From positions 124,001 through 188,000 of the forward strand of contig NZ_NPKQ01000005.1 of NCBI RefSeq assembly GCF_008329525.1: a DNA stretch of 64,000 bases, in the 5' to 3' direction. A program made the translations under genes and the position numbers. Shown here in pieces: positions 30,845 to 62,738 of the stretch. The DNA comes from Tardiphaga sp. P9-11. GTDB lineage: Bacteria > Pseudomonadota > Alphaproteobacteria > Rhizobiales > Xanthobacteraceae. Position 1 is the first letter of the stretch. Each line of letters starts with the position of its first letter. The notes beneath the pieces were generated by a model. The model had not been told where the DNA came from, did no database searches, and was given only the letters and a program-made list of their open reading frames with translations.

Positions 30845-30856
30845 ATACCACGGTAT
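30845..30856. promoter_or_regulatory. ATAC-N4-GTAT element before Bug receptor 3
   Basis: ATAC-CACG-GTAT matches the eight fixed bases of the element found repeatedly in 34-57 kb. Here it lies only 30 bp before the start codon and is followed by CTAT, not GAT, so it may be chance or a differently used site. Confidence 0.3.
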
Positions 30857-30886: not shown

Positions 30887-31846
30887 ATGCTCGTTCGCTG
30901 CCTTTTCATCGTCGCCGCGTTTCTGTCGTTTAGTTTCGTACGAGAAGCGAGAGCGGAATATCCGGATCGACCGATCCATCTGATAGTCGCGTTGCCACCC
31001 GGCGGATCGGTGGACGTTGTAGCTCGTATTCTTGCCGAGAAGGTCAGCGCTAGCCTCGGCGAACCAATCGTTGTTGAGAACAGACCGGGAGCCTCGGGCA
31101 TCGTTGCCGCGGAAGCGGTCTCTACGGCCGAACCTGACGGCTATACGGTTCTTTTCACCACATCGGCGCTAACCACGAGTCCGTGGATGTTGTCGTCGTC
31201 GTTTGATCCCGTCAAGAGTTTGCTGCCCGTAGTCCTGGTCGCTCGTGCGGCTTATGTTCTGGTCGTGAGGCCCAGCCTAGGTGTGAATTCACTCGATGAA
31301 TTCGTTGCCTTGGCAAAAGCGCAGCCAGGCAAGCTTAATTGCTCGACTTACGGTGTAGGGTCTCCTCCTCATCTGGCCCTGGAAATGCTAAAAGACGCCG
31401 CCGGGCTCGACATTGTTCACATTCCTTATCGAGGATTTGGACAAGCCCTCCCGGATATGATGTCCGGCCTACTCTCCTGTGCCATGGAAATTCCGGCGAA
31501 CGTGGAGCAGCAAATCCGTGTAAACAATCTGAAAGCCATTGCTGTCACTACCGCCAAACCGATCGATATCTTCCCGGGTGTGCCTCCGATTGCAACACGT
31601 TTTCCAAAGGTGATAGTTGATGGCTGGCAAGGAGTTCTGGTTCCGGAGCGAACACCCCAGTCGGTCGTAAGCCGGCTCAACATGGAATTTGTGAAAGCTT
31701 TACGAAATCCGGATACGGTCAAGCGGTTGCGAGAACTTGGCTTTGAGCCGATCGGCAACGACAGCGCAACGGCGGCGACCGTGTTCAGAAATGACTATGA
31801 GCGATTCGGGGTTATTCTGAACGAGATGAAGGGCACGCAACGGTGA
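30887..31846 (+). CDS. Bug-family (TTT) solute receptor 3, orphan
   Basis: A 319-aa Bug/TctC periplasmic receptor. The signal peptide (MLVRCLFIVAAFLSFSFVREARA) is followed by EYPDRPIHLIVALPPGGSVDVVA, PIVVENRPGASGIVAAEAV, PDGYTVLFTT and HIPYRGFGQALPDMMSG. It is not next to TctA/TctB or to any catabolic gene. Base composition is less GC-rich than in receptors 1 and 2, in line with the accessory character of the DNA to the right. Confidence 0.87.
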   Translation: MLVRCLFIVAAFLSFSFVREARAEYPDRPIHLIVALPPGGSVDVVARILAEKVSASLGEPIVVENRPGASGIVAAEAVSTAEPDGYTVLFTTSALTTSPWMLSSSFDPVKSLLPVVLVARAAYVLVVRPSLGVNSLDEFVALAKAQPGKLNCSTYGVGSPPHLALEMLKDAAGLDIVHIPYRGFGQALPDMMSGLLSCAMEIPANVEQQIRVNNLKAIAVTTAKPIDIFPGVPPIATRFPKVIVDGWQGVLVPERTPQSVVSRLNMEFVKALRNPDTVKRLRELGFEPIGNDSATAATVFRNDYERFGVILNEMKGTQR

Positions 31847-34134: not shown

Positions 34135-34482
34135 TCAGGTCTCTTCGAGGGCACCGAACGCGTCGAGCGTACGAAGCGAATAGACCGTCGCTGCGCCAGC
34201 ATTCACGCTGATCGCGATGCCCAGAGCTTCGGCGATCTCCTCCTTCGTCGCGCCCGCCTTGCGTGCTTGCGCGGTATGAACGGTGATGCAGCCGTCGCAC
34301 CGCAATGTCACGGACACGGCTAATGAGATGAGCTCGCGAAGCTTCGCATCGAGCGAGCCCGTCTTCGAATTCGCCTGACTCAATTGTACGTAGCCCTTCA
34401 CGGTGTCGGGGCTGAGCACGCCTAGCTCTTTGACGCCGGCATTCACCTGACGTCGGTAGTTATTCCAGTCCATCATCGTCAT
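34135..34482 (-). CDS. Carboxymuconolactone decarboxylase / AhpD-like protein
   Basis: A 115-aa CMD-family protein. The AhpD-type motif is complete: LRELISLAVSVTLRCDGCITVHTAQARKAGATKEEI, with Glu, CxxC and the following His. Such proteins act in peroxide or alkylhydroperoxide reduction or in lactone decarboxylation; the CxxCxxxH motif favours a redox role. It is the first gene of the SDR/MFS run and divergent from the DUF417 gene, with a 233-bp gap holding a regulatory element. Confidence 0.87.
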   Translation of the reverse strand: MTMMDWNNYRRQVNAGVKELGVLSPDTVKGYVQLSQANSKTGSLDAKLRELISLAVSVTLRCDGCITVHTAQARKAGATKEEIAEALGIAISVNAGAATVYSLRTLDAFGALEET

Positions 34483-34568: not shown

Positions 34569-34583
34569 ATACTCACGTATGAT
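34569..34583. promoter_or_regulatory. ATAC-N4-GTAT element A
   Basis: ATAC-TCAC-GTAT-GAT. It lies 86 bp before the AhpD-like start (reverse) and 132 bp before the DUF417 start (forward). A further GTATGAT half-site is at 34649-34655. One of several matching elements in this half of the window; the architecture resembles binding boxes of TodT/StyR-type FixJ regulators. Confidence 0.6.
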
Positions 34584-34715
34584 ATCGAGGTGGAGAGTGC
34601 GTGGACCGCGTAGAGATCATCCATATGCAGGGGCCGGCCTAAGCTTTCGTATGATTACTATCGAGACCGTAGCCCCTCGATATTGGAGGCTCAGCTAACT
34701 CATCGGGAGACCACC

Positions 34716-35372
34716 ATGCATCATATTGTAGTACGCGCTCTTGAAATCATCGCTAGTCATCGATCGAACGGGATCGGCATCGTCGCGATGAAACTCGCTA
34801 TCGCCATCATCTTTATTTGGATCGGAATGTTAAAATTTGTGCCGTACGAAGCGGACAGCATCACCCCATTCGTCGCTAATAGCCCCTTCATGTCGTTCTT
34901 CTACGCGCACCCGGGCGACTACGCCGCGCATCTCACCAAAGAAGGCTCGCTCGTGCCGGTGCAGCGCGTGTGGCAGGTTGCGAACCATACCTATGCGTTC
35001 TCGCGTGGCTTGGGTGTGGTTGAGTTTGCAATCGGTGTCCTCACTCTTGCGGGCTTGTTTTCGCGTTGGCTGGGATTGATCGGTGTGATCTTGGCCTTCG
35101 CCACTCCCTTCGTGACTTTGTCGTTCTTAGTGACGACGCCGGAGGCCTGGGTGCCAGCGCTCGGGGACGCGGAATTCGGTTTTCCATACTTGTCGGGAGC
35201 CGGGCGCCTAGTCCTAAAAGACGTGGCGATTCTCGCGGGCGCGTGGCTGGTCATCGTCGATACGGCACGAACAATTGTCATCGAACGAAGCGCGCGGCGA
35301 TCCGCTGGGGCGCATACAGCGGGGCAGGTCGTCCATCAGGCACCGCCTGAGCATCCGCAGGCGGCCGAATAG
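34716..35372 (+). CDS. DUF417 (YkgB/RclC-like) membrane protein
   Basis: A 218-aa inner-membrane protein with about four helices. Family features are MKLAIAIIFIWIGMLKFVPYEADSITPFVANSPFMSFFY and LGVVEFAIGVLTLAGLFSRWLG. E. coli RclC of this family protects against reactive chlorine; whether this one does is inferred. GGGAG precedes ATG 34716; the open frame begins at 34683. It is divergent from the AhpD-like gene and has element A upstream. Confidence 0.86.
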   Translation: MHHIVVRALEIIASHRSNGIGIVAMKLAIAIIFIWIGMLKFVPYEADSITPFVANSPFMSFFYAHPGDYAAHLTKEGSLVPVQRVWQVANHTYAFSRGLGVVEFAIGVLTLAGLFSRWLGLIGVILAFATPFVTLSFLVTTPEAWVPALGDAEFGFPYLSGAGRLVLKDVAILAGAWLVIVDTARTIVIERSARRSAGAHTAGQVVHQAPPEHPQAAE

Positions 35373-35800: not shown

Positions 35801-36445
35801 TCAATCCTTGTCGGCGAGTTCGACTGCTCGAACGAGGTCCGGCACGGTCCGTACGCCCATCTTCCTCATCATCGATCCGCGATGTAGTTTCACAGTGATC
35901 TCACTGAGGCCGAGAGCGCCCGCGATCTGTTTATTCATAAGACCGCGGACGACGAGCTCCATGACCTGCCGTTCCCGCGGGGTGAGTTTCGCCACGAGCT
36001 CGGTCGCGGAAGTCCGACGTGCGTGATCGGCCGATCTTTCACGATCTTTGCGTAGAGCCAGTTGAATGGAAGACATCAATTGTTCGTCCGCCAGTGGTTT
36101 GAGCAGAAAGTCCACGGCACCGGCCTTCATTCCTCTGACCGACCAACTGACGTCAGCATGTTCGGTCATCAGGACGACCGGCATATGGATTCCCACTGCA
36201 GGCAGCAACTCCTGAAAATCCAGTCCGTTTGCGGTCGGAAATTCGATGCTCAGCAGCAGGCACCCAGCGTCCCTTTTGTCGCGTCGATTGACGAAAGCGG
36301 CCGGGGATTTAAAATTCTGAGCCTCGAAACCGAACGACCTAAGGCGGTCGGTGATGTTCTCCGCCAAACTCACGTCGTCCTCGATAACGTGTACCAGACC
36401 GTGTGGCAGTGCCGGGTCGCCGGCTTGCGCGATCGTGTTCAACAT
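35801..36445 (-). CDS. FixJ/NarL-family response regulator lacking phospho-acceptor Asp
   Basis: A 214-aa protein with an N-terminal receiver (acidic pocket VIEDDVS at 20-26, Thr94 in LMTEHAD, Lys116 in LLKPL) and a C-terminal LuxR helix-turn-helix (LTPRERQVMELVVRGLMNKQIAGALGLSEITVKLHRG). The expected Asp is Ser66 (GCLLLSIEFPTANGL where relatives have GCLVLDVRLPG). It therefore probably works without phosphorylation or by dimerising with a partner. The recognition helix is almost the same as in the regulator at 54959, so both may bind the same DNA element. Confidence 0.85.
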   Translation of the reverse strand: MLNTIAQAGDPALPHGLVHVIEDDVSLAENITDRLRSFGFEAQNFKSPAAFVNRRDKRDAGCLLLSIEFPTANGLDFQELLPAVGIHMPVVLMTEHADVSWSVRGMKAGAVDFLLKPLADEQLMSSIQLALRKDRERSADHARRTSATELVAKLTPRERQVMELVVRGLMNKQIAGALGLSEITVKLHRGSMMRKMGVRTVPDLVRAVELADKD

Positions 36446-36965
36446 CTGCTCTTTCCTCTTGCAGGACTACGGTCGGCTCCAGATGCTGAGTCCGAAGGGG
36501 CCTTGAGCCAAGGATCCAAAGCGAACGCAGCGCCAGCACGACCGGCTCGCGAAGGAACATCTGCCCGAATCCCGGAAATCGCGAGTTTAGAGATGTAAAA
36601 TCGTCTGAACACGTTGTTGCGGCGGCAGTCGAGGGTTGAAGCTTGGATTAATAATATACCGGAAATTGCTGATGGCGCCCGAGGACGGAGCGCCTTTGGA
36701 TTGCCACGGACGGGTTCAATCGAAATGGGCTCGTCACGCGCCACCCATCTGCCGTTGCCGGGCGGGCTTGGATTGGGATCGCCTCGCGCTCCGCCGATTC
36801 TTGATCAGCCGCTCCGATCCGAGAGCGATCGTCACGCCCATACACTCGTATAGTTAGCAAGCGCTCCGCGTAGGTTCATGCTGACAATAACGCTCGTCGG
36901 TCTAGGCCTGCGAATGAAAACACGAATTTGCGCCAAAAGGTGAGCGGCCCACGCTGCGAAGAAAA
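36446..36965. other. Intergenic region upstream of MATE and FixJ-like genes
   Basis: A 520-bp divergent gap with no convincing gene; a reverse frame over 36439-36744 overlaps the regulator start and has no recognisable features. It contains TTGCGGCGGCAGTCG (36617-36631), matched with one change at 55667-55681, and element C at 36840. Confidence 0.5.
36840..36854. promoter_or_regulatory. ATAC-N4-GTAT element C
   Basis: ATAC-ACTC-GTAT-AGT, 111 bp before the MATE start codon. It matches the element seen at 34569, 48604, 48667 and 54846 in all eight fixed bases. Confidence 0.6.
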
Positions 36966-38357
36966 ATGACAGAGGAAATGTCTGGACCTGCTCCAGCCGA
37001 GCTGGACCCCCGCACTAAGCGTCTCCTGGAAGGCTCGATACTGTCGAACATCGTCAGGCTCGCGGTACCGAACACGACCGTCATGGCGGTTCAGGTCATC
37101 ATCGGACTGCTCGAAGTCTACTTCGTGTCCGGCCTCGGCGTCGACGCGCTGGCGGGAGTTTCACAGGTCTTCCCGCTCGTATCGCTCATGATAGCGGTGT
37201 CCCAAGGGGCCGTGGGCGGGGGAATAGTTACTGCGATCGCGCGTTGCTTGGGGCGGGGCGAACTCAGATCGGCGAGCGAATATGCGTGGTACTCCCTCGC
37301 CTTCAGTGCGGTGTTCGGTCTGCTTACGACCACAGTTATGGAGTGCTTCGGATCGGATCTATATCGCTTGATGGGAGCGCATGATGCGACGCTCGAGATC
37401 GCAAACTCGTATTCGAGGATAATCTTCGGCGGCGTCGTCTTGATGTGGAGCTTTAATCTACTGATGGCGAGCATCCGCGGCACCGGAAACCTCGTGGTAC
37501 CCGTCGTTGTAGTCTGTTCCTGCGCGGTGATCGTCATTCCGCTCTCTCCGTTCCTAATTTACGGGGGATGGGGAATGCACGGGTTGGGGGCAGCCGGCGG
37601 AGCTGTTGCAATGCTCGTCTACTATGGCATGGGAACGGTCGCTTATGGATTGTTCATCTGGCTTCACAAGGGTGTGTTGATGCCGACGAAATCCGTTCCT
37701 CGCCTGACCCTTGCTCCGGCATTGGGTGTTCTGCGGATCGGAGGAATGTCGGCGTTGGTCGGAAGCAGCACCAACCTCACGCTTGCGATCGTCACGGCAT
37801 ACGTCGGGCTTCACGGAACAGAAGCGCTGGCCGGTTACGGCTCGGCTTCAAGACTGGAATTTCTCCTCGTGCCTCTTTCGTACGGAGTGGGCGGCCCCGT
37901 TGGGATTCTCGTGAGCACGAATCTTGGAGCGGGGCAGGTCGACCGTGCGGTCAAGGCGTCCTGGTTGGGAGTGGCCATCGCGGCCGGCGTGACTGAAGCT
38001 ATCGGGGTTTGTGCGGCGCTGTTACCCGATGTATGGACGGGAATTTTCACCTCGGACCCTGTCGTTCAGTCGGTCGGAGCACAATATCTGCGTGTCGTCG
38101 GACCGTTCTTTGGCTTCTTCGGAATAGGTTACGTCCTTTATTGCACGGGGCAGGCAACAGGCCGGTTGGCTCTACCCGTGTTCGGCGCGCTGACAAGAGC
38201 GGCGATCGCGATCGTGGGCGGCTACTTACTGCTGGGCATACACGGCAATCTGCGGTCAAATTTCGTGGCTGTCTCGGTCGGCATGGTCTGTTTCGGGCTC
38301 GCGGCGTTGCCGGCGCTGGTGGCCCGTGTCGGCTACAAGCCGCGAAGTGCGCGGTAA
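36966..38357 (+). CDS. MATE-family multidrug efflux transporter
   Basis: A 463-aa protein with twelve predicted helices in two MatE repeats. The first repeat opens at SILSNIVRLAVPNTTVMAVQVIIGLLEVYFVSGLGVDALAGVS, and the second near APALGVLRIGGMSALVGSSTNLTLAIVTAYVGLHGTEALAGYG. MATE pumps export cationic or organic compounds using Na+ or H+. Only a weak ribosome site (GAAGAAAA) precedes ATG 36966. It is followed 31 bp later by the SLAC1-family gene, so they likely form an operon under element C. Confidence 0.9.
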   Translation: MTEEMSGPAPAELDPRTKRLLEGSILSNIVRLAVPNTTVMAVQVIIGLLEVYFVSGLGVDALAGVSQVFPLVSLMIAVSQGAVGGGIVTAIARCLGRGELRSASEYAWYSLAFSAVFGLLTTTVMECFGSDLYRLMGAHDATLEIANSYSRIIFGGVVLMWSFNLLMASIRGTGNLVVPVVVVCSCAVIVIPLSPFLIYGGWGMHGLGAAGGAVAMLVYYGMGTVAYGLFIWLHKGVLMPTKSVPRLTLAPALGVLRIGGMSALVGSSTNLTLAIVTAYVGLHGTEALAGYGSASRLEFLLVPLSYGVGGPVGILVSTNLGAGQVDRAVKASWLGVAIAAGVTEAIGVCAALLPDVWTGIFTSDPVVQSVGAQYLRVVGPFFGFFGIGYVLYCTGQATGRLALPVFGALTRAAIAIVGGYLLLGIHGNLRSNFVAVSVGMVCFGLAALPALVARVGYKPRSAR

Positions 38358-42461: not shown

Positions 42462-43808
42462 TCATTGGCCAGCCTGCTTTCTCAGCGTCGCAACATCCTT
42501 CTCCGTGACTTTCGAACCCTTCGAACCGAAACGAGCGGTCACGTAATTCGCCACCGCGGCAATTTCCGCGTCGGAATGACTGTTCCCAAACGATGGCATC
42601 GAGAGCGCTCCAGACGGGGTATATCGCTTCGTCCCCGATATTACGATCTGCGCGACGTTTGTCGCACCCGGGTCGTTTACGGCCCATGCGCCGGTGAGCG
42701 TAGCCATAGGAGAGATGGAGCTTTCCCCGGTCCAACCGTGACAACTGACGCATGCTCCCTCGAACACCGACTTTCCAAGTGCATTAGCAGTCATGCCTTC
42801 CTTGTGTGAAGGCGGAGCCCTAGGCGCCAAGGTGTCGGGCAAGTCGGGGGAGGTCACCGCCGGTACACTCCGCAGGAAGGACACCATGGCTTTGATGTCT
42901 GGTGCGGTCAATTTGCTGAAGCTGTGGTCAACTGCCTCGCCCATCGGGCCCGACGCCGTGCCATGACCTTTGGCATGGCCGACCGACAAATAAGATACGA
43001 TATCGTCGTCGCTCCAGCCGCCGAGCCCGGCCTTCGTATCGGAGCTTATGTTGAATGCGCGCCAACCAGCCGTCAGAGCCCCCCCGAACTTCTTGCGATT
43101 GTCCAAGGCGAACCCGATGTTTCTCGGAGTGTGGCATTCGCCGCAATGCGCGAGCGCTTCGACAAGATAGGCGCCTCTGTTCCATTCTGGACTCATCGAG
43201 GTGTCCGGTTGGAAGCGGGTATCCGGGTTGAAGAATGCAGACCAGAAGGTCATCGCCCAGCGCTGATTGAAAGGAAACGCAAGGGTGTTGACGGGCGGTT
43301 TGGAGATGACCGGGGGTAGGCTGAAGAGATACGCCTTGACGGCCAGGACGTCGGAATCGGTCATGTAGGTGTACGATGTGTAGGGCATAGCTGGATAGAG
43401 ACGGGCACCGTCGTGGCGCTTACCCCGTCGAACAGCATTCAGGAAGTCCTGGTCGGTGTAATTGCCGATGCCGGTTTCCTTGTCCGGCGTGATGTTGGTC
43501 GAGTACAAGGTTCCGAAGGGTAGCTTGAACGCAAAACCGCCGGTGTATTCCTTTGCGCCGGGCGCGGTGTGGCAGACCATGCAGTCAGCTGCCCGCGCCA
43601 GATACTCGCCGCGCTCGACCAGTCCCGCTTGAGCCATGGTCGCCGGCACGCCAGTCGGATCGGCAGCCTTGTACTCGCTTAGGGCGACTTTAGGGCCTTG
43701 GCTGAAATCGATCGGGCCCGGGCCGTGGACATACCAAGCGACCCCGGCGGCGATCACTGCGGCGATCGCGATTCCGCCACCCGTAATTCGATACGACGGA
43801 CGCTTCAT
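42462..43808 (-). CDS. Triheme cytochrome c subunit
   Basis: A 448-aa membrane-anchored cytochrome c with three heme motifs: CMVCH, CGECH and CVSCH. An N-terminal anchor (GGGIAIAAVIAAGVAWYVHG) places it on the periplasmic side. It resembles the cytochrome subunit of alcohol/aldehyde dehydrogenase complexes and would take electrons from the molybdenum hydroxylase encoded just upstream and pass them to the respiratory chain. Its ATG overlaps the stop of the large subunit gene by 4 nt, so the stoichiometry is probably fixed by coupling. Confidence 0.9.
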   Translation of the reverse strand: MKRPSYRITGGGIAIAAVIAAGVAWYVHGPGPIDFSQGPKVALSEYKAADPTGVPATMAQAGLVERGEYLARAADCMVCHTAPGAKEYTGGFAFKLPFGTLYSTNITPDKETGIGNYTDQDFLNAVRRGKRHDGARLYPAMPYTSYTYMTDSDVLAVKAYLFSLPPVISKPPVNTLAFPFNQRWAMTFWSAFFNPDTRFQPDTSMSPEWNRGAYLVEALAHCGECHTPRNIGFALDNRKKFGGALTAGWRAFNISSDTKAGLGGWSDDDIVSYLSVGHAKGHGTASGPMGEAVDHSFSKLTAPDIKAMVSFLRSVPAVTSPDLPDTLAPRAPPSHKEGMTANALGKSVFEGACVSCHGWTGESSISPMATLTGAWAVNDPGATNVAQIVISGTKRYTPSGALSMPSFGNSHSDAEIAAVANYVTARFGSKGSKVTEKDVATLRKQAGQ

Positions 43809-45976
43809 GATTTCTTCCCCGCGGCGATCAGACTTCGGTCGATGGGCAGCTTGCGTAGGGCGACGCCCGTCGCGGCATAGATGGCGTTGCGCAGAGCCGG
43901 CGCGCTGCCTATAACGCCTGCCTCACCGATGCCGCCCGGAGCTTCGCCGCTCTTGACGATATGAATCTCGATCTTCGGCATCTGATCGATACGCAGCATT
44001 CTGTAATCGTGGAAATTGGACTGCTGCACGCGCCCCTTGTCGATCGTGATCTCACCGTATAACGCGGCGGTCAGACCGAACACGATGCCGCCTTCCAGCT
44101 GCGCCGCAATGGTATCCGGATTGACCGCGATACCTGTATCGACGGCGAGCGTGACCCGGTGCAGACGAACTTCGCCGAGATCGTCGACCTCCGCTTCAAC
44201 GACCGTCGCGATCGCGGTGTCGAAGGTCGGTTGAAGGCTGACGCCGCGGCCAAATCGTCGAGGAAGCAACTTGCCCCATCCCGACTTCTGCGCCACGAGA
44301 TCCAGAACATTCTGCACCCGGGGCGCTTTCCCGAGCATGGCCCTCCGGAAGGCGATGGGATCCTTACCTGCCTTGCGCGCCAATTCGTCCATGAAGCTTT
44401 CGATGGCGAACACGTTGTTATTGGGGCCTACGCCGCGGAAAAATCCAGTCGGAATCGCCGGAGGCTCTGCACGCACGTATTCGACCTGGAAATTCGGTAT
44501 TTCGTAGGGAGCGTCCGTCGCGCTGTCGACAGCGTCGCCGTCGATGCCGTTCCGAAATCCTGGAGGGAGCCACCGCGCGACGATGGCGGATCCGGCAACT
44601 CGATATTTGAAGGCAACGATCTTGCCGTCCTCCAACGTCGCCGCGACGTCGTCCCGATAGATAGGTCGATAAATGTCGTGTTGGATGTCTTCTTCGCGCG
44701 TCCAAACGACCTTTACCGGACCGTCGACGTGCCTTCCGATGCGCACGGCTGCAATCACCATGTCGGGTTCAAGCCTTCTGCCGAAACCGCCTCCGAGCAG
44801 ATGCTGGTTGACGATGACCTTGTCCACCGGAACACCAGCGGCTTTCGCCGCTTCGGACTGCACGCGCGTCATGATCTGCGTGCCCACCCAGACCTCGCAG
44901 GCTTCCTTCTTGACATGGACGGTGCAATTCAATGGCTCCATCGTGGCGTGTGCGAGGAACGGCAATTCGAACGACGCCTCGTATTTCTCGCCGACAGCGA
45001 GGCCTTTCGTGACATCTCCGTTCGTCTTGGCGACCGCGCCCCCCTTGGCGCTGGCGACCCGCAGTTGCTTCCATATCTCCTCGGAATCGAGGTTGGCGTT
45101 CGGACCCTCGTCCCAGATAATGTTCAACGCCTCCAACCCGCATTTTGCGGCCCACATATTGTCGCCGACCACCGCGACAAGATCTTCGAGGACGACGATC
45201 TTCCGAACGCCCGGGACCTTTTTCGCGGCGGTGTCGTCGATCTTTGCGACCTTGCCACCGAAAACCGGACATTGTGCCAAGGTCGCGAAGCTTAGGCCCG
45301 GCATCATGGCGTCTATGCCGTATTTCGCCTTGCCGTTGACTTTGTCGGGAGTATCGAGACGTTTGAGAGGTTTTCCAATGAGCTTGAACTCATCCGGATT
45401 CTTGAAAGGAGTGTCCTTTGGAATCGGAAGTGCGCTGGCCGCTTCCACCAAATCGCCATATGCAAAACTGCGGCCGCTCAGCGCATGGATCACCTCGCTG
45501 TTTGCCGCCGTACAAGTTGCCGGATCGACCTGCCAACGTGCTGCGGCGGCCTGTATCAACATGGCCCGCGCATTTGCGCCCGCCGCGCGCATTGGTTTCC
45601 AGAAGGCCCGAATGGAATTGGAGTTGCCAGTCGACTGCAGACCAAACATCGGATTGCCATACAGCTTGTCGTCCGGCGGCGCGTGCTCGAGCGTGAGGCG
45701 CGAGAAGTCCGCATCGAGTTCCTCCGCCAAGATCATCGCGATAGACGTGTAGATTCCCTGTCCCATTTCGACTTGCGGCATCACAAGCGTGGTGATGCCG
45801 TCGCCGCCAATGCGGATGAACGCGTTCGGTGCGAACCTTGCCGCGGCGATAGGCTGTGTCACCGCGTCCGCCTTGCGTAGCGGAAGATGGAACGCGACCA
45901 GTATTCCGCTCGCTAGTCCTCCGCGCAGGAGGTTCCGGCGCGAGAGCCCGACTTTCTTCGTATCAGCGATCGTCAC
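43805..45976 (-). CDS. Molybdopterin-binding large subunit of aldehyde/isoquinoline oxidoreductase type
   Basis: A 723-aa protein of the xanthine oxidase family, one-chain IorB/CoxL-like form. The N-terminus has a Tat signal (GLSRRNLLRGGLASGILVAFHLP). Molybdopterin-domain features include VMPQVEMGQGIYTSIAMILAEELD, LLGGGFGRRLEPD, GFFRGVGPNNNVFAIESFMDELA and the final GEAPGGIGEAGVIGSAPALRNAIY with the catalytic Glu (GIGEAG). It should hydroxylate an aldehyde or N-heterocycle in the periplasm with the 2Fe-2S and cytochrome subunits. It starts 9 bp after the small-subunit gene. Confidence 0.92.
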   Translation of the reverse strand: MTIADTKKVGLSRRNLLRGGLASGILVAFHLPLRKADAVTQPIAAARFAPNAFIRIGGDGITTLVMPQVEMGQGIYTSIAMILAEELDADFSRLTLEHAPPDDKLYGNPMFGLQSTGNSNSIRAFWKPMRAAGANARAMLIQAAAARWQVDPATCTAANSEVIHALSGRSFAYGDLVEAASALPIPKDTPFKNPDEFKLIGKPLKRLDTPDKVNGKAKYGIDAMMPGLSFATLAQCPVFGGKVAKIDDTAAKKVPGVRKIVVLEDLVAVVGDNMWAAKCGLEALNIIWDEGPNANLDSEEIWKQLRVASAKGGAVAKTNGDVTKGLAVGEKYEASFELPFLAHATMEPLNCTVHVKKEACEVWVGTQIMTRVQSEAAKAAGVPVDKVIVNQHLLGGGFGRRLEPDMVIAAVRIGRHVDGPVKVVWTREEDIQHDIYRPIYRDDVAATLEDGKIVAFKYRVAGSAIVARWLPPGFRNGIDGDAVDSATDAPYEIPNFQVEYVRAEPPAIPTGFFRGVGPNNNVFAIESFMDELARKAGKDPIAFRRAMLGKAPRVQNVLDLVAQKSGWGKLLPRRFGRGVSLQPTFDTAIATVVEAEVDDLGEVRLHRVTLAVDTGIAVNPDTIAAQLEGGIVFGLTAALYGEITIDKGRVQQSNFHDYRMLRIDQMPKIEIHIVKSGEAPGGIGEAGVIGSAPALRNAIYAATGVALRKLPIDRSLIAAGKKS

Positions 45977-45985
45977 GACCGGCTC

Positions 45986-46450
45986 CTATGGTTGGCGTTC
46001 GGACGAAGCGAGTTTGATCGCGTCGCGAATTCTCTTGTAGGTTCCGCAGCGGCAAATGTTGCCTGCCATCGCAGCATCGATGTCGGCGTCGTCGGGGCGA
46101 GGCGTCGCGGCAAGCAGCGCGGCGGCCGACATGACCTGTCCGGATTGGCAATAGCCGCATTGGACGACCTCAAGATCGAGCCAAGCCTTCTGCACCTTCG
46201 CGCCGACGGGAGTCACGCCTATGCCTTCGATGGTGGTCACGGCGCGCTCGCCGAGTTCGCCGATCGATAGCAGGCATGAGCGAACAGCCTTCCCGTCGAC
46301 ATGCACCGTGCAGGCGCCGCACAACGCTGCGCCACATCCGAACTTAGTACCCGTCATGCCCAGAACGTCCCTGAGGACCCAGAGAAGCGGCATCTCGTCC
46401 GGCACATCTACGGACTTCCGTTCGCCGTTTAAGTTCAATACCGTCGTCAT
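45986..46450 (-). CDS. 2Fe-2S small subunit of molybdenum hydroxylase (IorA-like)
   Basis: A 154-aa protein with two 2Fe-2S clusters: the plant-ferredoxin-type [22 protein letters not shown] and the all-helical [18 protein letters not shown] plus [16 protein letters not shown]. It moves electrons from the molybdenum centre. It lacks its own signal and is probably carried out with the Tat-tagged large subunit. ATG 46450 follows GAGGTGAGA; GTG 46456 is also in frame. It is the first gene of the reverse operon small subunit, large subunit, cytochrome c. Confidence 0.92.
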
Positions 46451-46765
46451 TCTCACCTCGGTCGTGTATTAGGTCGGGAAAACGTGGATCCCGCCGTTTC
46501 CGGCTGCGTGTATCTCGCCAGTCGCAGATTTCGTATGCATAGAAGCCAGGCGATCCGCTGCCCGCAACCATCCACATGTATGATGCACGATGGGGGTGGC
46601 TCACTTCGCGCGACGATCCGACGTGCAGTTCGATGTCGTCCTCGACCGAAAGGCCTTGTCGCAGAGCGTTAGCTGCTGGTGAAAGACGACAAGGTATCGG
46701 CGGTCGCGGCCGGGTCCTCGACGGCGAGCCAATGCCTGGATTCCGGGATGACGTTCAACGTGACG
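46451..46765. other. Intergenic region with hydrolase remnant
   Basis: A 315-bp gap upstream of the molybdenum hydroxylase operon. It holds a weak match to the regulatory element (46570-46584) and, on the reverse strand at 46669-46780, the tail of a lost alpha/beta hydrolase. No intact gene is seen. Confidence 0.55.
46570..46584. promoter_or_regulatory. ATAC-N4-GTAT-like element I (one mismatch)
   Basis: ATCC-ACAT-GTAT-GAT, one change from the consensus, 119 bp before the start of the 2Fe-2S subunit gene on the reverse strand. A further GTATG lies at 46533-46537. Position fits the other elements. Confidence 0.4.
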
Positions 46766-47427: not shown

Positions 47428-48516
47428 TTAGAACGAAGTGATGACGCTTCGTGCGACGGCGCCGCGCTTCAGATCCTCGTACGCCTGGTTGATCTCGCTG
47501 ATGTTGATCGTGCGCGAGATCAGATCGTCGAGGTTGAAGCGGCCCTGCAGGTAGAGATCGGCGTACATCGGAACGTCGTGTTTGATGTTGCTGGAGCCCA
47601 TGAAGACCCCCTGCAGCTTCACCTGACGGACGATGACGTCGAGGCCCTGAAGCGCCATTTCCATTCCCGGCCGGTGCAGTCCGATGAGATAGGCGCCGCC
47701 TCCTACCCGGGCCATCTGAACCGCCTGTTGCGATGTCGGTACAAGCCCGATGACTTCGAAGGCATGGTCCACGCCGCCGCCGGACAGCTTGCGCACCGTT
47801 GCGACTGCGTCGCCTGCTGAGGGGTTGACGAAGTGTGTCGCACCGAACTTGAGGGCCAGAGCTTCTTTTTCAGGCTGGAGATCGATAGCGATGATCTGCT
47901 CCGCGCCGGCCAGCTTGGCTCCCGAAATGGCGTTCAACCCGACCCCGCCGACGCCGATCACGACCACTCTGTCACCTGGCCGCATGCCAGCCGTGTTGAT
48001 CGCGGCTCCGGCTCCGGTGATGACGCTGCAGCCCAGAAGCGACGCCTGGGGAAACGGCAGCTCCTTGGGAACGCGGACCAACTGGTTTTCGTGAATCAGA
48101 GCGTATTCGGCAAAGCCGGCTGTCCCAAATCCCGTTGTGACGGGCTGGCCGTTTCTCGTGATGCGTTGACCCTCAGCCGCGGGCCGAAGCGTTTCGTTCG
48201 GGCTATCACACTGGAAGCTTCGCCCTCCGATGCAGGGGCGGCAATGGCCGCAAGTCTGGATCAGCGACCCCACTACGTGGTCGCCCACGGCGAAATCATG
48301 CACTTCCGGTCCCACTTCCCGGACGATGCCGGCGACCTCGTGGCCCAACACTGCCGGAAGCGGCGTTCCATAATTTGCCTCGGCCAGATGGAGATCCGAA
48401 TGGCAGAGCCCGCAAGCCTTGACCTCTACCAACACCTCTCGATGCAACGGCTTGCCGATCTCGAGCTCTTCGATATCGAACTTGCCGCTGAAGCTGTTCA
48501 GTACTGCCGCCTTCAT
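47428..48516 (-). CDS. Zinc-dependent alcohol dehydrogenase (class III / Adh-like)
   Basis: A 362-aa MDR-family alcohol dehydrogenase. It has the catalytic zinc ligands (KACGLCHSDLH Cys, GHEVAGIVREVG His-Glu), the structural zinc-type CGHCRPCIGGRSFQC with four Cys, and the NAD motif VIGVGGVGLNAISGAKLAGA. Length, the PxxGHE region and a long loop after the structural zinc resemble mycothiol/formaldehyde-type dehydrogenases. AAGGATCATCAA precedes ATG 48516. It is divergent from the isochorismatase-like gene, and each gene has its own ATAC-N4-GTAT element. Confidence 0.92.
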   Translation of the reverse strand: MKAAVLNSFSGKFDIEELEIGKPLHREVLVEVKACGLCHSDLHLAEANYGTPLPAVLGHEVAGIVREVGPEVHDFAVGDHVVGSLIQTCGHCRPCIGGRSFQCDSPNETLRPAAEGQRITRNGQPVTTGFGTAGFAEYALIHENQLVRVPKELPFPQASLLGCSVITGAGAAINTAGMRPGDRVVVIGVGGVGLNAISGAKLAGAEQIIAIDLQPEKEALALKFGATHFVNPSAGDAVATVRKLSGGGVDHAFEVIGLVPTSQQAVQMARVGGGAYLIGLHRPGMEMALQGLDVIVRQVKLQGVFMGSSNIKHDVPMYADLYLQGRFNLDDLISRTINISEINQAYEDLKRGAVARSVITSF

Positions 48517-48603
48517 TTGATGATCCTTCGAGCTGCGCAACGCTACGAGAGCGTTCTGTGGGCTTGAAGGTGGCGTAGGCTCAAGTGTCGCCCACCGATA
48601 TCT

Positions 48604-48618
48604 ATACAGGCGTATGAT
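48604..48618. promoter_or_regulatory. ATAC-N4-GTAT element D
   Basis: ATAC-AGGC-GTAT-GAT, 87 bp before the alcohol dehydrogenase start codon (reverse strand). With element E it forms a pair in the divergent promoter region, one near each gene. Confidence 0.65.
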
Positions 48619-48666: not shown

Positions 48667-48681
48667 ATACACGAGTATGGT
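48667..48681. promoter_or_regulatory. ATAC-N4-GTAT element E
   Basis: ATAC-ACGA-GTAT-GGT, 110 bp before the isochorismatase-like gene start. It is centred 63 bp (six helix turns) from element D. Confidence 0.65.
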
Positions 48682-51287: not shown

Positions 51288-51302
51288 AGACCTCCGTATG
51301 AT
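51288..51302. promoter_or_regulatory. ATAC-N4-GTAT-like element F (one mismatch)
   Basis: AGAC-CTCC-GTAT-GAT, one base from consensus, 67 bp before the favoured start of the soluble histidine kinase gene. Confidence 0.5.
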
Positions 51303-51369
51303 TCCGCGACGCAACGGCTTCCGCGATGTTGCGATAGATAATTCGATGATGCCGAACGTAGAGGAAGTG

Positions 51370-52098
51370 ATGACATATTCGACGGATAGGATGACCGCGA
51401 CCGAAGCGCTCGCGCAGGCTGAAGCGGCTCGGTTAAGCCTCGCGCGTATCATGGCCGTCGCGGGCCACGATCTGAAGCAGCCTCTGCAGATAGCGGTCAT
51501 GTCGATTGAACGCGCAATGAGCGACACGTTGGGGCAGGTCGCCCAAAGGCGTTTGTCGATGGCGCTTGACGCGCTCTGTCGCTTGGACACTGAATTGAGC
51601 GAGTTGGCAAGGTCATCACAGATCGACCGGTCGTCTGATCAATCGATCGAAAAAGTGGCGCTCGGGACGCTGCTTTCCGATCTCGAAGACGATTGGTTTG
51701 AATACGCGTCGAGCCGGGATATCGCTTTCTACGTCGAGCCAAGCGCGCTCGATGTTCGCAGCAATCAGGCCATGCTTCGGACCATCCTGCGCAATCTCGT
51801 CGGAAACGCGATCAAATTCTCGCCATCTGGATCCTGTGTCGGAGTCAATTGCCGCATCGGCGTCAACGAGGTGACGATTGAGATCAGCGACGAAGGATGC
51901 GGAATCCCAGAGCTCGAGTTATCGCGGATATTCGAGGTGTTCGCCCGCGGCGAACGCTCTCACCACACGTGCGGTCTTGGCCTCGGATTGTACATCGTTC
52001 GGGAGACCGCGGATATTCTCAAGCATCCGGTGACGGTCAGATCGATACAGGGAGAAGGTTCGACGTTCTCGGTAACCATACCCCTGATGGAGAACTGA
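51370..52098 (+). CDS. Soluble histidine kinase without sensor domain
   Basis: About 242 aa. A short N-terminal helix leads into a HisKA domain (H-box MAVAGHDLKQPLQIAVMS, His near residue 33) and the HATPase (N-box LRNLVGNAIKFSPSG, G1 DEGCGIPE, G2 GLGLGLYIVRET). There is no signal, membrane span or PAS, so input must come from a partner. I favour ATG 51370, 5 nt after GAGG; ATG 51346 is the alternative. It is convergent with the MFS-kinase gene and may phosphorylate the FixJ-type or single-domain regulators of the cluster. Confidence 0.85.
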   Translation: MTYSTDRMTATEALAQAEAARLSLARIMAVAGHDLKQPLQIAVMSIERAMSDTLGQVAQRRLSMALDALCRLDTELSELARSSQIDRSSDQSIEKVALGTLLSDLEDDWFEYASSRDIAFYVEPSALDVRSNQAMLRTILRNLVGNAIKFSPSGSCVGVNCRIGVNEVTIEISDEGCGIPELELSRIFEVFARGERSHHTCGLGLGLYIVRETADILKHPVTVRSIQGEGSTFSVTIPLMEN

Positions 52099-52161: not shown

Positions 52162-54693
52162 TCAGTTCGTCATCACGGCAGACTTCGATTCCCGGAACGT
52201 CTGATCATCCATCGGCTCTTCGCGAAGCAGCGGCAGCACGATGTCGAATACGGCACCTCCCTGCGGATGGTTCGCTCCGGTCAATGTCCCACCGTGGGCT
52301 TCGACGATAGTTTTGCAGATCGCCAAGCCTATTCCCATCCCCTCGCGCTTGGTAGTGAAGAACGGATTAAAGAGTTTCGCCAGATGTTCCACATCGATGC
52401 CAGAGCCGGTGTCCCTCACGCTGAGATTCACTTCATCCAATTTCGCTGAATAGATCGATATCCTGAGTTCGCGAGTGGCGAGCGGCGACCGCGTCATCGC
52501 GTGCACGCCGTTAGTGAGAAGATTCACGATGACCTGCTGCAGCTCCACTCTGTCGCAGAGCACGGTCGAATCTGTACGTCCGAGATCCGTCCGCACGACG
52601 ACGCCGGCCTCGGTCAGTTCCCGCTCGAGGAGGTTCACCGAGCCGGCCAATACCTCCCGAAGATCGATAGGCTCTGGATGTCGCTTGTGGTGCTTAAGCT
52701 GCTCGCGGGTGCGTTGGACGATATCGGCGGCTCTCATGCCGTCTTTTATGGCCCGCTCGGCGGCCCGGGTGGCCGCGTCTATGTTGGGAGGCGAGTGGGC
52801 GAGCCAGCGAACGCAGGCCTGCGCGCTCATCACCATGGCGCCGATCGGTTGGTTCACTTCATGCGCGATGGAGGCCGAAACGGCCCCGACGGTAGAGATA
52901 CGGCCCGCGCGCGCGAGTTCGGCCTGCGCGTTCAGCATGGCCTCCTTGGCAGCTTCGCGTTCGGTGACGTCGATCATCGCACAGGCGACGCGATCGAACG
53001 ATGCGGCTCCTTCGGGTACCGCGATGAAAAGGATCGCGGTGACCTTCCTTCCGTCGGCCCTCGTCAACGTGACCTGCCTCTCGAATGCCCCGCCACCCTC
53101 GGGCATCTTCAGCAGTATGTCCGCTACGACCGACGGGTCCTCCGCCAGATAGCGGTCGATGGGACCTAGGGGCTCATGTTTCGAGGAACAGCCGAGAAGT
53201 CTCACCGCCGCGTCGTTGACGTCCCGTATCTCGATCAATCTAGCGATGTCCGTGAGGATCGCCAGGTGCTTCCGGCCCCGTCTCATCATGTCCTTGGCGC
53301 CGTTCGCATTGATGTCCATCAAGCGCTCGTAGGCGCGAGACAGATCGAGCTCGCATAGCGAGACGTGGGTCTGCTCGAAGATCGATCGATAGCGCCGCTC
53401 GCTCAAGGCCAGATCGCTCGACGTCTGCCGCCGCAGGCTGATGTCGAAGGCTATGAGGCTCACACCGCCGGTAATGGCGAGATAGAAGCCGACCGCCGTC
53501 AATCCGCTACTGTCGGCAAGTGCCTGGGAGATGACCGGAGAAAAGGCGCCGCCGAGGATTCCGCCGATGTTGAAGGCGAAAGAAGTTCCCGAGTAGCGAA
53601 CGCGAGGCGGAAATAGATTGGGAAGCCACGCGCCGAGAGGACCATTGACGAAGCCCATGACGAGCAGGGAAAACGCCAGGAACGCGAAGATGACCAGTAA
53701 GGAGCCGCTGCCGAGCATCGGAGCCAGAAGAATCCCCGACAGGATCGTCCCAAGGCAGCCAACGATCAGAATCTTTGCGGGGTTCAACCTGTCCGAAAGC
53801 CAGCTCGCCACGACGATGGCTCCGGCCATGAAGAAGATCGCTCCCAATTCGATCAGCAGAAAGGTAGAGCGGGAGTAGCCGAGAACGGATGTTCCGTATC
53901 CTAGCGCGAACGCCGTCGCCGTATAGTAGAGCGAAAAGCAGGCGACCACGCCGAACGTCCCCGTCAGAACTTGGCTCGAGTGGTTGCGCATCAACTCCAG
54001 AAGTGGAACGCGCGCGGGTTGTGCTTCGGTGAGCGAAGCGGTGAACTCCTGAGTCTCCATCAGATTCGTCCGGACCCAGAGGCCGATCAGCACGAGAAGG
54101 ACGCTTGCCAGAAACGGTATGCGCCAACCCCAATTTTGGAATTGGTCCGGCGTCAGAACAATGGTCAGCGTAAGGAACATTCCGTTCGCCAGAACGAAGC
54201 CCACAGGCGCTCCGAGAGGAGCGAACATGGCATAACGTGCGCGCCATCCGGCCGGTGCGTTTTCGAGCGCGAGTAGGGCAGCGCCGGTCCATTCGCCGCC
54301 TAGTGCGAGGCCTTGTCCGAAGCGTAGAACGCAGAGCAGAAACGGCGCAGGCCAGCCAACGACTTGAAACGTGGGGAGGAAGGCTATCGATGCCGTTGAG
54401 GCTCCCATCAGAAGGAGCGATGCGACGAGTGTCGTTTTACGCCCGACGCGATCGCCGAAGTGACCGAACACCGCTCCACCGAGTGGCCTGGCGAAGAAGG
54501 CCACCCCGAAGCTGGCGTAAGCGCCAATCAGTTCGGCCGACGGAACCGATGCCGGAAAAAACAAGGGACCGAAGATAAGGCTGGCCGCGGTCGCATAGAT
54601 GTAGAAGTCATAGAATTCTACCGTCGTTCCGACCAGACTCGCGAGGAGCACCCGGGTCGTGGTTTGGCCCGGTGGGTTTGACGGCGCTGTCAT
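52162..54693 (-). CDS. MFS transporter fused to PAS-histidine kinase
   Basis: An 843-aa fusion. Residues ~12-420 are a complete twelve-helix MFS carrier of the metabolite:H+ symporter type, with VEFYDFYIYATAASLIFGPLFFP, loop motif HFGDRVGRKT (78-87) and LRFGQGLALGGEWTGAALL. A PAS-like region follows (~430-580), then HisKA (SIAHEVNQPIGAM, His611) and HATPase (N-box Asn724/728, G1 DTGSG 761-765, G2 GMGIGL 785-790). All kinase residues are present. I start at MTAPSNPPGQ (54693), after GGGGC; the open frame runs to 55008 without homology. It probably senses the transported compound and signals to the divergent FixJ-type regulator. Confidence 0.88.
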   Translation of the reverse strand: MTAPSNPPGQTTTRVLLASLVGTTVEFYDFYIYATAASLIFGPLFFPASVPSAELIGAYASFGVAFFARPLGGAVFGHFGDRVGRKTTLVASLLLMGASTASIAFLPTFQVVGWPAPFLLCVLRFGQGLALGGEWTGAALLALENAPAGWRARYAMFAPLGAPVGFVLANGMFLTLTIVLTPDQFQNWGWRIPFLASVLLVLIGLWVRTNLMETQEFTASLTEAQPARVPLLELMRNHSSQVLTGTFGVVACFSLYYTATAFALGYGTSVLGYSRSTFLLIELGAIFFMAGAIVVASWLSDRLNPAKILIVGCLGTILSGILLAPMLGSGSLLVIFAFLAFSLLVMGFVNGPLGAWLPNLFPPRVRYSGTSFAFNIGGILGGAFSPVISQALADSSGLTAVGFYLAITGGVSLIAFDISLRRQTSSDLALSERRYRSIFEQTHVSLCELDLSRAYERLMDINANGAKDMMRRGRKHLAILTDIARLIEIRDVNDAAVRLLGCSSKHEPLGPIDRYLAEDPSVVADILLKMPEGGGAFERQVTLTRADGRKVTAILFIAVPEGAASFDRVACAMIDVTEREAAKEAMLNAQAELARAGRISTVGAVSASIAHEVNQPIGAMVMSAQACVRWLAHSPPNIDAATRAAERAIKDGMRAADIVQRTREQLKHHKRHPEPIDLREVLAGSVNLLERELTEAGVVVRTDLGRTDSTVLCDRVELQQVIVNLLTNGVHAMTRSPLATRELRISIYSAKLDEVNLSVRDTGSGIDVEHLAKLFNPFFTTKREGMGIGLAICKTIVEAHGGTLTGANHPQGGAVFDIVLPLLREEPMDDQTFRESKSAVMTN

Positions 54694-54845: not shown

Positions 54846-54860
54846 ATACCCACGTATAGT
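54846..54860. promoter_or_regulatory. ATAC-N4-GTAT element G
   Basis: ATAC-CCAC-GTAT-AGT in the divergent region between the MFS-kinase and FixJ-type genes, 98 bp before the regulator start and 152 bp from the kinase start. It suggests autoregulation of the signalling pair. Confidence 0.65.
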
Positions 54861-54958: not shown

Positions 54959-55591
54959 ATGACGAAAGAGTCCAAGACCGATCCGAACTCCGATCCTCTG
55001 GTGATCATCGTCGACGACGACGAAGGCGTCCGCGAAGGGCTTCGGGATCTTCTAGGGTCCGCTCACATAGAAACACTGGTGTTCGAGTCGACGGCGTCTC
55101 TTCTGTCCGCCGCTCTGCCCGATCGACCGGGCTGCCTGGTCCTCGATGTTCGTCTGCCCGGGCTCAGCGGCCTCGAGTTGCAGGTCAAGATGACGGAAAT
55201 GGGCAGCGAAGTGCCGATCATCTTCATGACCGGACATGGCGACGTGCCAATGAGCGTGAAAGCGATGAAGGCGGGGGCGCTCGACTTCCTGACAAAGCCC
55301 TTCCGGGACCAGGACATGATCGATGCGGTTGAGAATGCGATCAGCCGGGACCGGGCGCGCAGGCTGCTCGGCGAAGGCTTGTCCGAAATCAAGGCACTGG
55401 CGGGCACGCTTACCCCTCGGGAGACCGAAGTCATGGCTGAGGTCGTCAAGGGACTCCTCAACAAGCAGATAGCCTTCAACCTCGGGATCAGCGAAATCAC
55501 GGTGAAGATCCACCGTGGAAACGTGATGAGGAAGATGAGGGCGACGTCGGTCGCCGATCTCGTCCGGAAGACTGAGGCCATCAAGATCTAG
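54959..55591 (+). CDS. FixJ-family response regulator
   Basis: A 210-aa two-domain regulator. The receiver has acidic residues DDDE at 19-22, phospho-acceptor Asp63 (GCLVLDVRLPGLSGLELQ), Thr91 and Lys113. A LuxR-type helix-turn-helix follows (LTPRETEVMAEVVKGLLNKQIAFNLGISEITVKIHRG). It is the likely partner of the divergent MFS-kinase and the best candidate to bind ATAC-N4-GTAT; related TodT/StyR regulators bind pseudo-palindromes with 4-bp centres. Its helix-turn-helix is close to that of the Ser66 protein at 35801-36445. Confidence 0.92.
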   Translation: MTKESKTDPNSDPLVIIVDDDEGVREGLRDLLGSAHIETLVFESTASLLSAALPDRPGCLVLDVRLPGLSGLELQVKMTEMGSEVPIIFMTGHGDVPMSVKAMKAGALDFLTKPFRDQDMIDAVENAISRDRARRLLGEGLSEIKALAGTLTPRETEVMAEVVKGLLNKQIAFNLGISEITVKIHRGNVMRKMRATSVADLVRKTEAIKI

Positions 55592-55875
55592 GAACGGGTC
55601 AATTACGGCTATCGCATTGCGGGGCCGGATCAATCCGCGGAATATGAACCGCCGTAAAAATTCACTTTGCGGTGGCAGTCGCGGATAAAATTCGCTTCTC
55701 GAAGCGACGGTCAAAAAAGGCCTTCCTCGACCAACTGGCTGGCCCGGCGATCCCTTCTTCGTTCCAGTTCAGGCCGGCTTTTGCCGATAACACGATTGTA
55801 TGATTACCTTCGGCGCAGCCTTCCCCCACATCTTCTTTGTAAGAAGTGCCAATCTACGGCGCGGAAGGAGGAAGA

Positions 55876-56238
55876 GTGTCAGATCCCAAGAAACCCGTGG
55901 CGATCGTGGACGACGACGAGGATATCCTCGATGCGACGTCCAGTTTCCTCGGAGCTGTGGGGTACGAAACGATTCTTTTCAGTTCTGCCGAAGCTTTCCT
56001 CGCCTATGATCGTAAATCACAGTTCCTCTGCCTGCTTACCGACGTAAATATGCCGGGAATGAGCGGACTAGAATTGCAGGCCATCGTTCGGGCGACATTG
56101 CCGATGCTACCGATCTTCATCATGACGGCACTTTCGGACGACAATGTCAGAAAACGGGCAATCGACGGCGGCGCGAAGGGGATTCTCCGAAAGCCTGTCA
56201 ACGGAGATGACCTTATCCGCTGCCTTGAAGGGGCGTAA
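55876..56238 (+). CDS. Single-domain response regulator (CheY-like)
   Basis: A 120-aa stand-alone receiver. DDDED (12-16), Asp56 (LLTDVNMPGMSGLELQ), Thr84 and Lys106 (LRKPVNG) make it a competent phosphoprotein with no output domain. The sequence is closest to FixJ-type receivers. It could be a phosphate sink or relay for the kinases nearby. GTG 55876 follows GGAAGGAGGAAGA, a very strong ribosome site; the upstream open frame from 55846 is not needed. A 284-bp gap (55592-55875) separates it from the FixJ gene and carries TTGCGGTGGCAGTCG. Confidence 0.88.
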   Translation: MSDPKKPVAIVDDDEDILDATSSFLGAVGYETILFSSAEAFLAYDRKSQFLCLLTDVNMPGMSGLELQAIVRATLPMLPIFIMTALSDDNVRKRAIDGGAKGILRKPVNGDDLIRCLEGA

Positions 56239-62249: not shown

Positions 62250-62738
62250 ATGCAGCGATCACAGCTATCCGTCATTTCTGCTGTCGTTTTTGCGATGTCC
62301 CTCGCAAGTGTACCCGCACGCGCTATCGAGCTTCCGACACGCCCCGTCCTCACTCTCGAGGCGGCAAGAACCGTGGCCGCCGCTGCGGAATCGAAAGCCA
62401 AAATGGAAGGTTGGCCCTGCGTGATTTCAATTACTGACGATGCAGGACTGCCAATTTTGCTCACGCGAATGGACAATGCAGCCGTGCCGGCGGGTGTCGA
62501 ACTCGCTCCGGGAAAGGCTCGGACCGCAGCGCTCTTTCGCCGCGAGAGCGGCGCCCTTGAAGACGCCGTCAACGGCAAACGGCCAGCTGCAATCACCGCG
62601 CGCGGCTTTGTTCTAATGCGGGGGGGCGTCCCTATCGTCGTCGGAGGCCGGATCGTCGGCGCCATCGGTGTATCCGCGGATACGCCAGACCACGACGAGC
62701 AGATCGCAAAAGCGGGCTCCGTCGCGCTGAGTCAATGA
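62250..62738 (+). CDS. GlcG/HbpS-family heme-binding-like secreted protein
   Basis: A 162-aa protein with a signal peptide (SVISAVVFAMSLASVPARA) followed by a GlcG/HbpS domain: LTLEAARTVAAAAESKAKMEGWPCVISITDDAGLPILLTRMDNA, KARTAALFRRESG and GGVPIVVGGRIVGAIGVSADTPDHDEQIAKAG. Members bind heme or small cofactors or act as accessory parts of catabolic operons. AAAGGAG precedes ATG 62250. Its stop overlaps the start of the broken MFS gene by 4 nt. Confidence 0.88.
   Translation: MQRSQLSVISAVVFAMSLASVPARAIELPTRPVLTLEAARTVAAAAESKAKMEGWPCVISITDDAGLPILLTRMDNAAVPAGVELAPGKARTAALFRRESGALEDAVNGKRPAAITARGFVLMRGGVPIVVGGRIVGAIGVSADTPDHDEQIAKAGSVALSQ

Follow-up and report, generated by a model that had tools for sequence, protein, structure and literature searches.

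Proteins that join a transporter to a histidine kinase are already known as such. CbrA has the domain order SLC5-STAC-PAS-DHp-CA (PMC13022988), and reports on RpuS (PMC9100948) and on transport by CbrA (PMC7096432), together with a sensor-kinase review (PMC8534201) and further background literature (PMC11109136, PMC2442086), form the setting of this work. Ks-Amt5, a transporter domain fused to a kinase, is reported to work as a receptor (PMC5764959), UhpC is described as a direct sensor of glucose-6-phosphate (PMC11077982), and the NarL/FixJ-family regulators TodT and StyR are said to be ones that 'may recognize' ATAAAC-N4-GTTTAT (PMC5874301). A table line in PMC3924187 names the TCDB family 2.A.1.34, 'Sensor Kinase-MFS Fusion (SK-MFS)', with its substrate listed as unknown; among the open-access matches listed, judged by title and the start of the abstract, this family name was all that was found and no paper dealt with a fusion between a carrier of the major facilitator superfamily (MFS) and a kinase. 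Here we describe such a fusion, encoded at 52162-54693 of a 64,000-nucleotide stretch from Tardiphaga sp. P9-11 (contig NZ_NPKQ01000005.1; the whole stretch is called the window below), together with its partner regulators and a predicted operator. An initial annotation of the window had called an MFS carrier in this position little or not described, which holds for the open-access papers listed but overlooks the existing TCDB family.

Few carrier superfamilies are as large as the MFS. The fusion gene occupies a single frame of 843 codons on the minus strand, with an ATG at 54693 and no internal stop, and is divided as follows.

52162-54693, minus strand: MFS(MHS)-PAS-HisKA-HATPase fusion gene, 843 amino acids (open reading frame, Pfam, NCBIfam; 16 other intact loci)
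53449-54660, minus strand: 12-helix MHS-type MFS carrier domain, residues 12-415 (Pfam, NCBIfam, AlphaFold model, tree, conservation)
53371-53502, minus strand: single predicted helix, residues 398-441, that extends carrier helix 12 into PAS (AlphaFold model; join in the alignment)
52924-53388, minus strand: PAS-like domain, residues 436-590 (Pfam, alignment, AlphaFold model)
52228-52923, minus strand: HisKA (His611 at 52861-52863) and HATPase_c (Pfam, alignment)

The domain search that the initial annotation had proposed placed MFS_1 (residues 22-386, 79.3 bits, cut-off 33.4), Sugar_tr (67.8 bits, cut-off 22.3) and HATPase_c (residues 714-822, 85.4 bits, cut-off 26.4) above their Pfam cut-offs, and PAS_8 (20.9 bits, cut-off 21.8) and HisKA (19.2 bits, cut-off 26.9) below theirs. 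The carrier fits best the metabolite/H+ symporter model TIGR00883 (E 1.8e-114, 382.9 bits, under the cut-off of 443.45, model positions 1-398 of 400); it has the MFS fold with 12 helices and keeps the charged residues of motif A, and the HFGDRVGRKT loop begins at residue 78. An AlphaFold model built with 38 sequences (mean pLDDT 79.3, pTM 0.61) has twelve carrier helices, as had been predicted, whereas a crude hydropathy scan detected only nine; in this model carrier helix 12 runs unbroken from residue 398 to 441 into the PAS domain, with a pLDDT of about 70 near the join. A fold search with the model ranked FixL-type kinase chimeras (4gcz) first; the first carrier to appear, at rank 13, was XylE, a proton:xylose symporter (TM-score 0.71 on the target). 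No MHS-labelled carrier was among the 12 and 37 matches of PDB sequence searches, and neither NCBIfam equivalog cut-off was reached, with FixL at 172.6 bits (cut-off 850) and FixJ at 205 (cut-off 255). The frame, the Pfam matches and the model bear out the proposal that a complete carrier, PAS, HisKA and HATPase lie in one chain, with His611 as the HisKA histidine; the H, N, F and G boxes, which had been thought intact, are so in the alignment of all 17 fusion loci.

The MFS-kinase fusion is a genuine conserved family. A search for the same architecture in other genomes, another suggestion of the initial annotation, gave 16 further intact loci, 62-70% identical to the window gene, and our working set was the resulting 17 distinct intact fusion loci, window included. 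Because the frame runs through the join in every one of them, a sequencing error at 53400-53460, where a check of continuity had been advised, is excluded; the hardly conceivable alternative that an assembly artefact or sequencing error joined two genes is ruled out by the 16 other intact loci, which come from several genera and include plasmids. Named records are from Agrobacterium tumefaciens, Rhizobium etli and other Rhizobium, Shinella, Mycoplana, Ancylobacter sonchi and unplaced Rhizobiales. Full-length relatives were present in 3 of 390 other genomes sampled from the family of the window and in none of 17 further genomes from its genus, not all of which are complete; the family of Rhizobium wenxiniae had the fusion in 3 of 346 genomes, two of these already counted among the genome-contig loci. 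A class sample of 385 genomes (E ≤ 1e-125) returned only the window's own fusion and eight carriers alone. Among the matches listed, the 80 kept genome-contig loci comprised at least 10 fusions, the other 70 being free carriers (L052, which a contig edge ends at about residue 405 so that its C-terminus is unseen, is one of these). The fusion covered at least 80% of the query in five plasmid records, and four plasmid copies are annotated merely as 'MFS transporter'.

Several records were left outside the working set: L043, which shares a contig with L121; L032-L034, L144 and L145, whose genes were in the set already; and H3 and G1456/L143. The G749 relative (L124, L129), from a single-contig genome that is 88% complete, was likewise excluded, its frames being interrupted within the carrier. 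A Pantoea plasmid match that resembled an MFS-EAL fusion proved to be two separate genes and was rejected, and the longer L080 and L086 matches extend past a stop codon, both being free carriers.

The fusion apparently evolved once. A tree of 108 carriers (17 fused, 70 free and 21 others of MHS type, one of these 21 serving as root) united the fusions in a single clade (support 1.0) adjoining three Sphingomonas or Sphingomonas-like free carriers (0.974). The fusions again grouped as one clade in the kinase tree, for which L009 was the root, this time together with the broken G749 copy (0.988); the clade lay among kinases with an input of three to four predicted helices. Both halves nest within unfused families. 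The join falls at a 'SExRYRSIFEQ'-like stretch that is found in the fusions and in the short-helix-input kinases alike. Since the trees of both halves give one fusion clade, a single input swap would be the simplest history. Read-through between neighbouring genes is not suggested by present-day neighbours, because a search for the kinase half beside the 70 free-carrier loci (3.3-13.4 kb) found just four weak, general kinase matches at 23-28% identity. A kinase of 920 residues with four predicted helices and, by eye, several repeated PAS-like stretches is encoded in L120 (13074-15836, minus strand), 0.4 kb beyond the single-receiver gene described below, and is 37% identical to the kinase half of the fusion.

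The carrier is the best conserved part of the fusion protein. Mean pairwise identity across the 17 fusions was 81% for the carrier, 79% for HisKA, 62% for the ATPase and 54% for PAS, and in each of seven fusion pairs (dS 0.08-1.7) the ratio of non-synonymous to synonymous substitution rates (dN/dS) was lowest in the carrier (0-0.035, compared with 0.06-0.14 for PAS and 0.03-0.18 for the kinase core). Positions at which at least 95% of the 70 free carriers share one residue were taken as near-invariant, and 146 of these 167, the charged motif-A residues included, were retained in at least 90% of the fusions. A further 18 positions were invariant in the fusions and rare (≤10%) in free carriers, and were counted against plain transport. 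The neighbourhoods of the free carriers point to no substrate, with ten non-carrier gene families recurring in at least five loci and the largest in 12; by eye these families are mostly housekeeping-like. The free carriers themselves (L045-L114), 56-68% identical to the fused carrier, are from Sphingomonas, Phenylobacterium, Caulobacter, Nitrospirillum and even Nitrosomonas, in no obvious pathway context.

Two response regulator genes accompany the fusion.

54959-55591, plus strand: divergent FixJ/NarL-type response regulator with receiver Asp63 and LuxR helix-turn-helix (Pfam, NCBIfam, locus comparison)
55846-56238, plus strand: single-receiver response regulator, likely start 55876 (Pfam, locus comparison)

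The divergent FixJ-type gene, which the initial annotation had pointed out, was present in 17/17 loci (61-71% identity in the 16 others), as was the single-receiver gene (53-59%), whose start is never more than 1.7 kb from that of the FixJ-type gene. The three genes form a fixed module. Just past the 3' end of the fusion gene, and convergent with it, lies a gene (51298-52098, plus strand) for a 266-residue kinase in which Pfam finds HATPase_c only and whose best match is to NahK/ErcS-type kinases. Farther off are the cytochrome c, molybdopterin-binding and 2Fe-2S subunits of a molybdenum oxidase (42462-46456, minus strand), relatives of one or more of which lie near the fusion in several other loci. 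Genes for HbpS-like small proteins also recur near the fusion, at 62250-62738 in the window and directly downstream in L036, L037, L038 and L042.

Comparison of intergenic regions led to the dyad ATAC-N4-GTAT, a predicted operator. All copies below come from the dyad scan, that at 55790 also from comparison of the 17 loci; no strand is assigned.

54846-54857: exact dyad between the fusion gene and the FixJ-type gene
55790-55801: dyad with one mismatch, 86 bp before the single-receiver gene
48604-48615: exact dyad upstream of a Zn-alcohol dehydrogenase and an isochorismatase-type hydrolase
48667-48678: second exact dyad in the same gap
36840-36851: exact dyad upstream of a MATE gene
34569-34580: exact dyad between an AhpD-like gene and an rclC-like gene
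30845-30856: exact dyad, 30 bp before an open reading frame at 30887 (plus strand)

The six exact copies in the window compare with 0.07 expected, and none of 100 shuffles reached six. The remaining loci then provided a test of the pattern. Exact dyads occurred in 16 of the 17 fusion loci, with 19 copies in 278 kb (for the window, the last 22 kb entered the count), where Markov simulations gave 0.4; as a natural control, 807 kb of free-carrier loci held six. Every one of the 17 loci had a dyad with zero or one mismatch 80-86 bp (once 101 bp) before the homologous single-receiver start, ten being exact at 80-86 bp, one exact at -101 and six with one mismatch, and such dyads were found in 184 of 4000 random 260-bp windows. 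The extended form TATAC-N4-GTAT gave ten matches at nine places in the genome of the window, four of these places lying in the window, and none for the reversed control. In G121, the genome of L120, 4 of 14 dyads are on the 173-kb contig of the fusion, and one lies between single-receiver and FixJ-type genes beside a kinase with four predicted helices; because this dyad would serve a regulator pair next to a four-helix kinase, the output wiring seems to predate the fusion. L187 (G295) has three exact dyads in a stretch of 14 kb, at 3090, 7729 and 16328. Two of these immediately precede open reading frames that are related to the kinase half of the fusion and each have four predicted helices. 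Close to the exact dyad at 36840, the window has a second FixJ-type response regulator gene (35801-36445, minus strand). Two other patterns were dropped, namely a long footprint CTCGACCTAG..., exact in seven loci of Rhizobium and nowhere else, and ATCT-N4-AGAT dyads, of which six of 12 sites in 11 loci were one position in close relatives. A scan for sigma-70-like promoters found none, with 1.1 expected.

Four window genes with dyads nearby are candidate targets of the module.

47428-48549, minus strand: Zn-alcohol dehydrogenase, its start placed at 48549 from comparison with the similar L120 gene (dyads upstream)
34135-34482, minus strand: CMD/AhpD-like protein (dyad upstream)
34683-35372, plus strand: RclC, reactive chlorine resistance membrane protein (NF040476, 298.3 bits, cut-off 275)
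36966-38357, plus strand: MATE transporter (dyad upstream)

The CMD/AhpD-like gene is preceded by a dyad in Ancylobacter (L121) as well as in the window. In L121 rclC comes next in the same direction, whereas in the window the two genes are divergent with the dyad between them; RclC of L121 (289.1 bits) also exceeds the NCBIfam cut-off. The Zn-alcohol dehydrogenase has dyads upstream in the window and in L120, the proteins being 71% identical. Of the 19 stretches searched (≥38% identity), only the window and L121 had the CMD and RclC genes, and only the window and L120 the dehydrogenase. The MATE gene has its dyad only in the window, a 41% identical relative in L120 being without one. No dyad was found at relatives of the short-chain dehydrogenase (SDR) gene in L115, L116 and L118, of the hydrolase in L115, L116, L040 and L187 or of the isochorismatase in L182. 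Of the DHA1-type efflux relatives, those in L115 and L116 had a one-mismatch dyad, and those in L118 and L182 had none.

From the architecture, conservation, apparent single origin, gene linkage and dyads, all of them visible in the DNA, we infer ligand sensing by the carrier, its coupling to the kinase, phosphotransfer, DNA binding and the function of the regulon. A carrier of the proton-symporter type would have replaced the usual input of three to four helices in a FixJ-partnered PAS-HisKA-HATPase kinase. An external organic compound would bind in the carrier, and may pass through it, and the conformational change would travel along the continuous helix 398-441 to PAS and HisKA, where His611 would autophosphorylate. 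The phosphate would then pass to Asp63 of the divergent FixJ-type regulator and perhaps also to the single-receiver regulator, acting as a sink. Once phosphorylated, the FixJ-type regulator would bind ATAC-N4-GTAT dyads, giving feedback through the copy upstream of the single-receiver gene in every locus and, locus by locus, control of defence-type genes (RclC, AhpD-like, Zn-alcohol dehydrogenase, MATE). The recurrence of the fusion with its two regulators in soil- and plant-associated bacteria suggests that a carrier became a sensor that switches on nearby stress-defence genes, and we consider it probable that the carrier is the kinase input and that the FixJ-type output acts on a defence-like regulon through the dyads. 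The narrower scenario that a nutrient symporter became, in one event, the receptor for a toxic or reactive organic compound, driving the regulator onto dyads before rclC, AhpD-like, alcohol dehydrogenase and efflux genes, is in our estimate doubtful.

The conservation of the carrier bears on whether such an input would still transport. It is possible, if not probable, that the protein imports its substrate by proton symport and that kinase activity follows flux or occupancy, a mechanism that has been proposed for CbrA. The retained charged and motif-A residues would fit this, as would a constraint no weaker than in free carriers: as dN/dS of distant pairs is unreliable at high third-position GC content, only pairs at least 88% identical were counted, and the medians were 0.02 for fusions (21 pairs), 0.098 for free carriers (29) and 0.078 for other MHS-type carriers (40). 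Moreover, none of the five fusion genomes examined had a second close carrier, the next best being at most 47% identical. Against continued import stand the fusion-only substitutions, several of which are in helices 4, 5, 7 and 10. In the column of Gln159, which corresponds in the alignment to a helix-5 Gln with a role in sugar binding in hexose transporters of known structure, 17/17 fusions have Pro, although so do 4 of the 70 free carriers. At nine of the 18 fusion-invariant positions (54, 130, 136, 155, 158, 177, 254, 319 and 350) not one free carrier among the 70 has the residue of the fusions, which may mean that the binding site took on another ligand or lost transport. Loss of transport with ligand binding kept, for which Ks-Amt5, and UhpC acting for UhpB, are the reported precedents, is quite possible, about as much so as continued import; the conserved charged residues, motif A included, are what it leaves unexplained. 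Receptor is our best reading of the fused carrier, which is perhaps also a transporter.

A different idea is that the join serves only co-expression or localisation and that PAS alone senses. The PAS-kinase half does occur with unrelated short-helix inputs, and PAS could be the real sensor; we nevertheless think a mere tether unlikely, given the predicted continuous helix from carrier to PAS, the stronger conservation of the carrier than of PAS, and the scarcity of kinase-half relatives beside free carriers. Several further points, like the nine substitutions and the PAS domain, weigh against the proposal that the carrier drives a dyad-controlled regulon. Seven of the 17 loci are closely related to each other, and the dyad was reached after several patterns had been tried. 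With one mismatch allowed, the excess in the window is weak (11 dyads, 5.85 expected; 4 of 100 shuffles reach 11). Genome-wide counts in seven fusion genomes do not exceed the reversed control (7-14 dyads, 6-19 control sites per genome), so the enrichment is local. Besides the single-receiver gene only two target types recur with a dyad, in two loci each, and for five other window genes a dyad is mostly missing at the relatives; because so few targets recur, the defence-type regulon is a lead, not a result. The carrier as kinase input nevertheless remains our preferred reading, and the fusion looks like a transporter-derived sensor.

The compact three-gene module and its predicted operator would allow signalling by carrier occupancy, conformational state or flux to be tested on one polypeptide, with the sister kinases of short-helix input and similar output as a natural control for the input swap. 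TodS/TodT and StyS/StyR share with this module a NarL/FixJ-family regulator and a dyad with a 4-base spacer, the half-site being AAAC there and ATAC here; their full operator was not matched in our sites, and 5 of the 17 single-receiver-gene sites have one AAAC half. TodS and StyS are soluble PAS sensors. UhpC-UhpB-UhpA likewise places membrane sensor, kinase and regulator in series, using two separate membrane proteins where the window has one chain; UhpC is an MFS protein of another family than the fused carrier, and UhpA is LuxR-type. Ks-Amt5 resembles the fusion in its transporter-kinase join and differs in its ammonium transporter fold, and is reported not to translocate efficiently. The window gene has what the name SK-MFS denotes, an MFS carrier and a sensor kinase in one chain; the likeness is by name alone, and the table places SK-MFS (2.A.1.34) apart from MHS (2.A.1.6). 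Membership among the SLC5/STAC kinases is excluded. Pfam finds no SSF (SLC5) domain in the fusion at E ≤ 0.01, with MFS_1 and Sugar_tr in its place, and no further domain between the carrier and the PAS-like region, where the roughly 20 residues after helix 12, all within helix 398-441, leave no room for the four-helix STAC domain. As the initial annotation had supposed, these kinases (CbrA, CrbS, RpuS) are still the nearest analogues: they too carry a secondary carrier N-terminal to a histidine kinase, theirs being of the SLC5 type and that of the window an MFS/MHS carrier with a FixJ-type regulator beside it.

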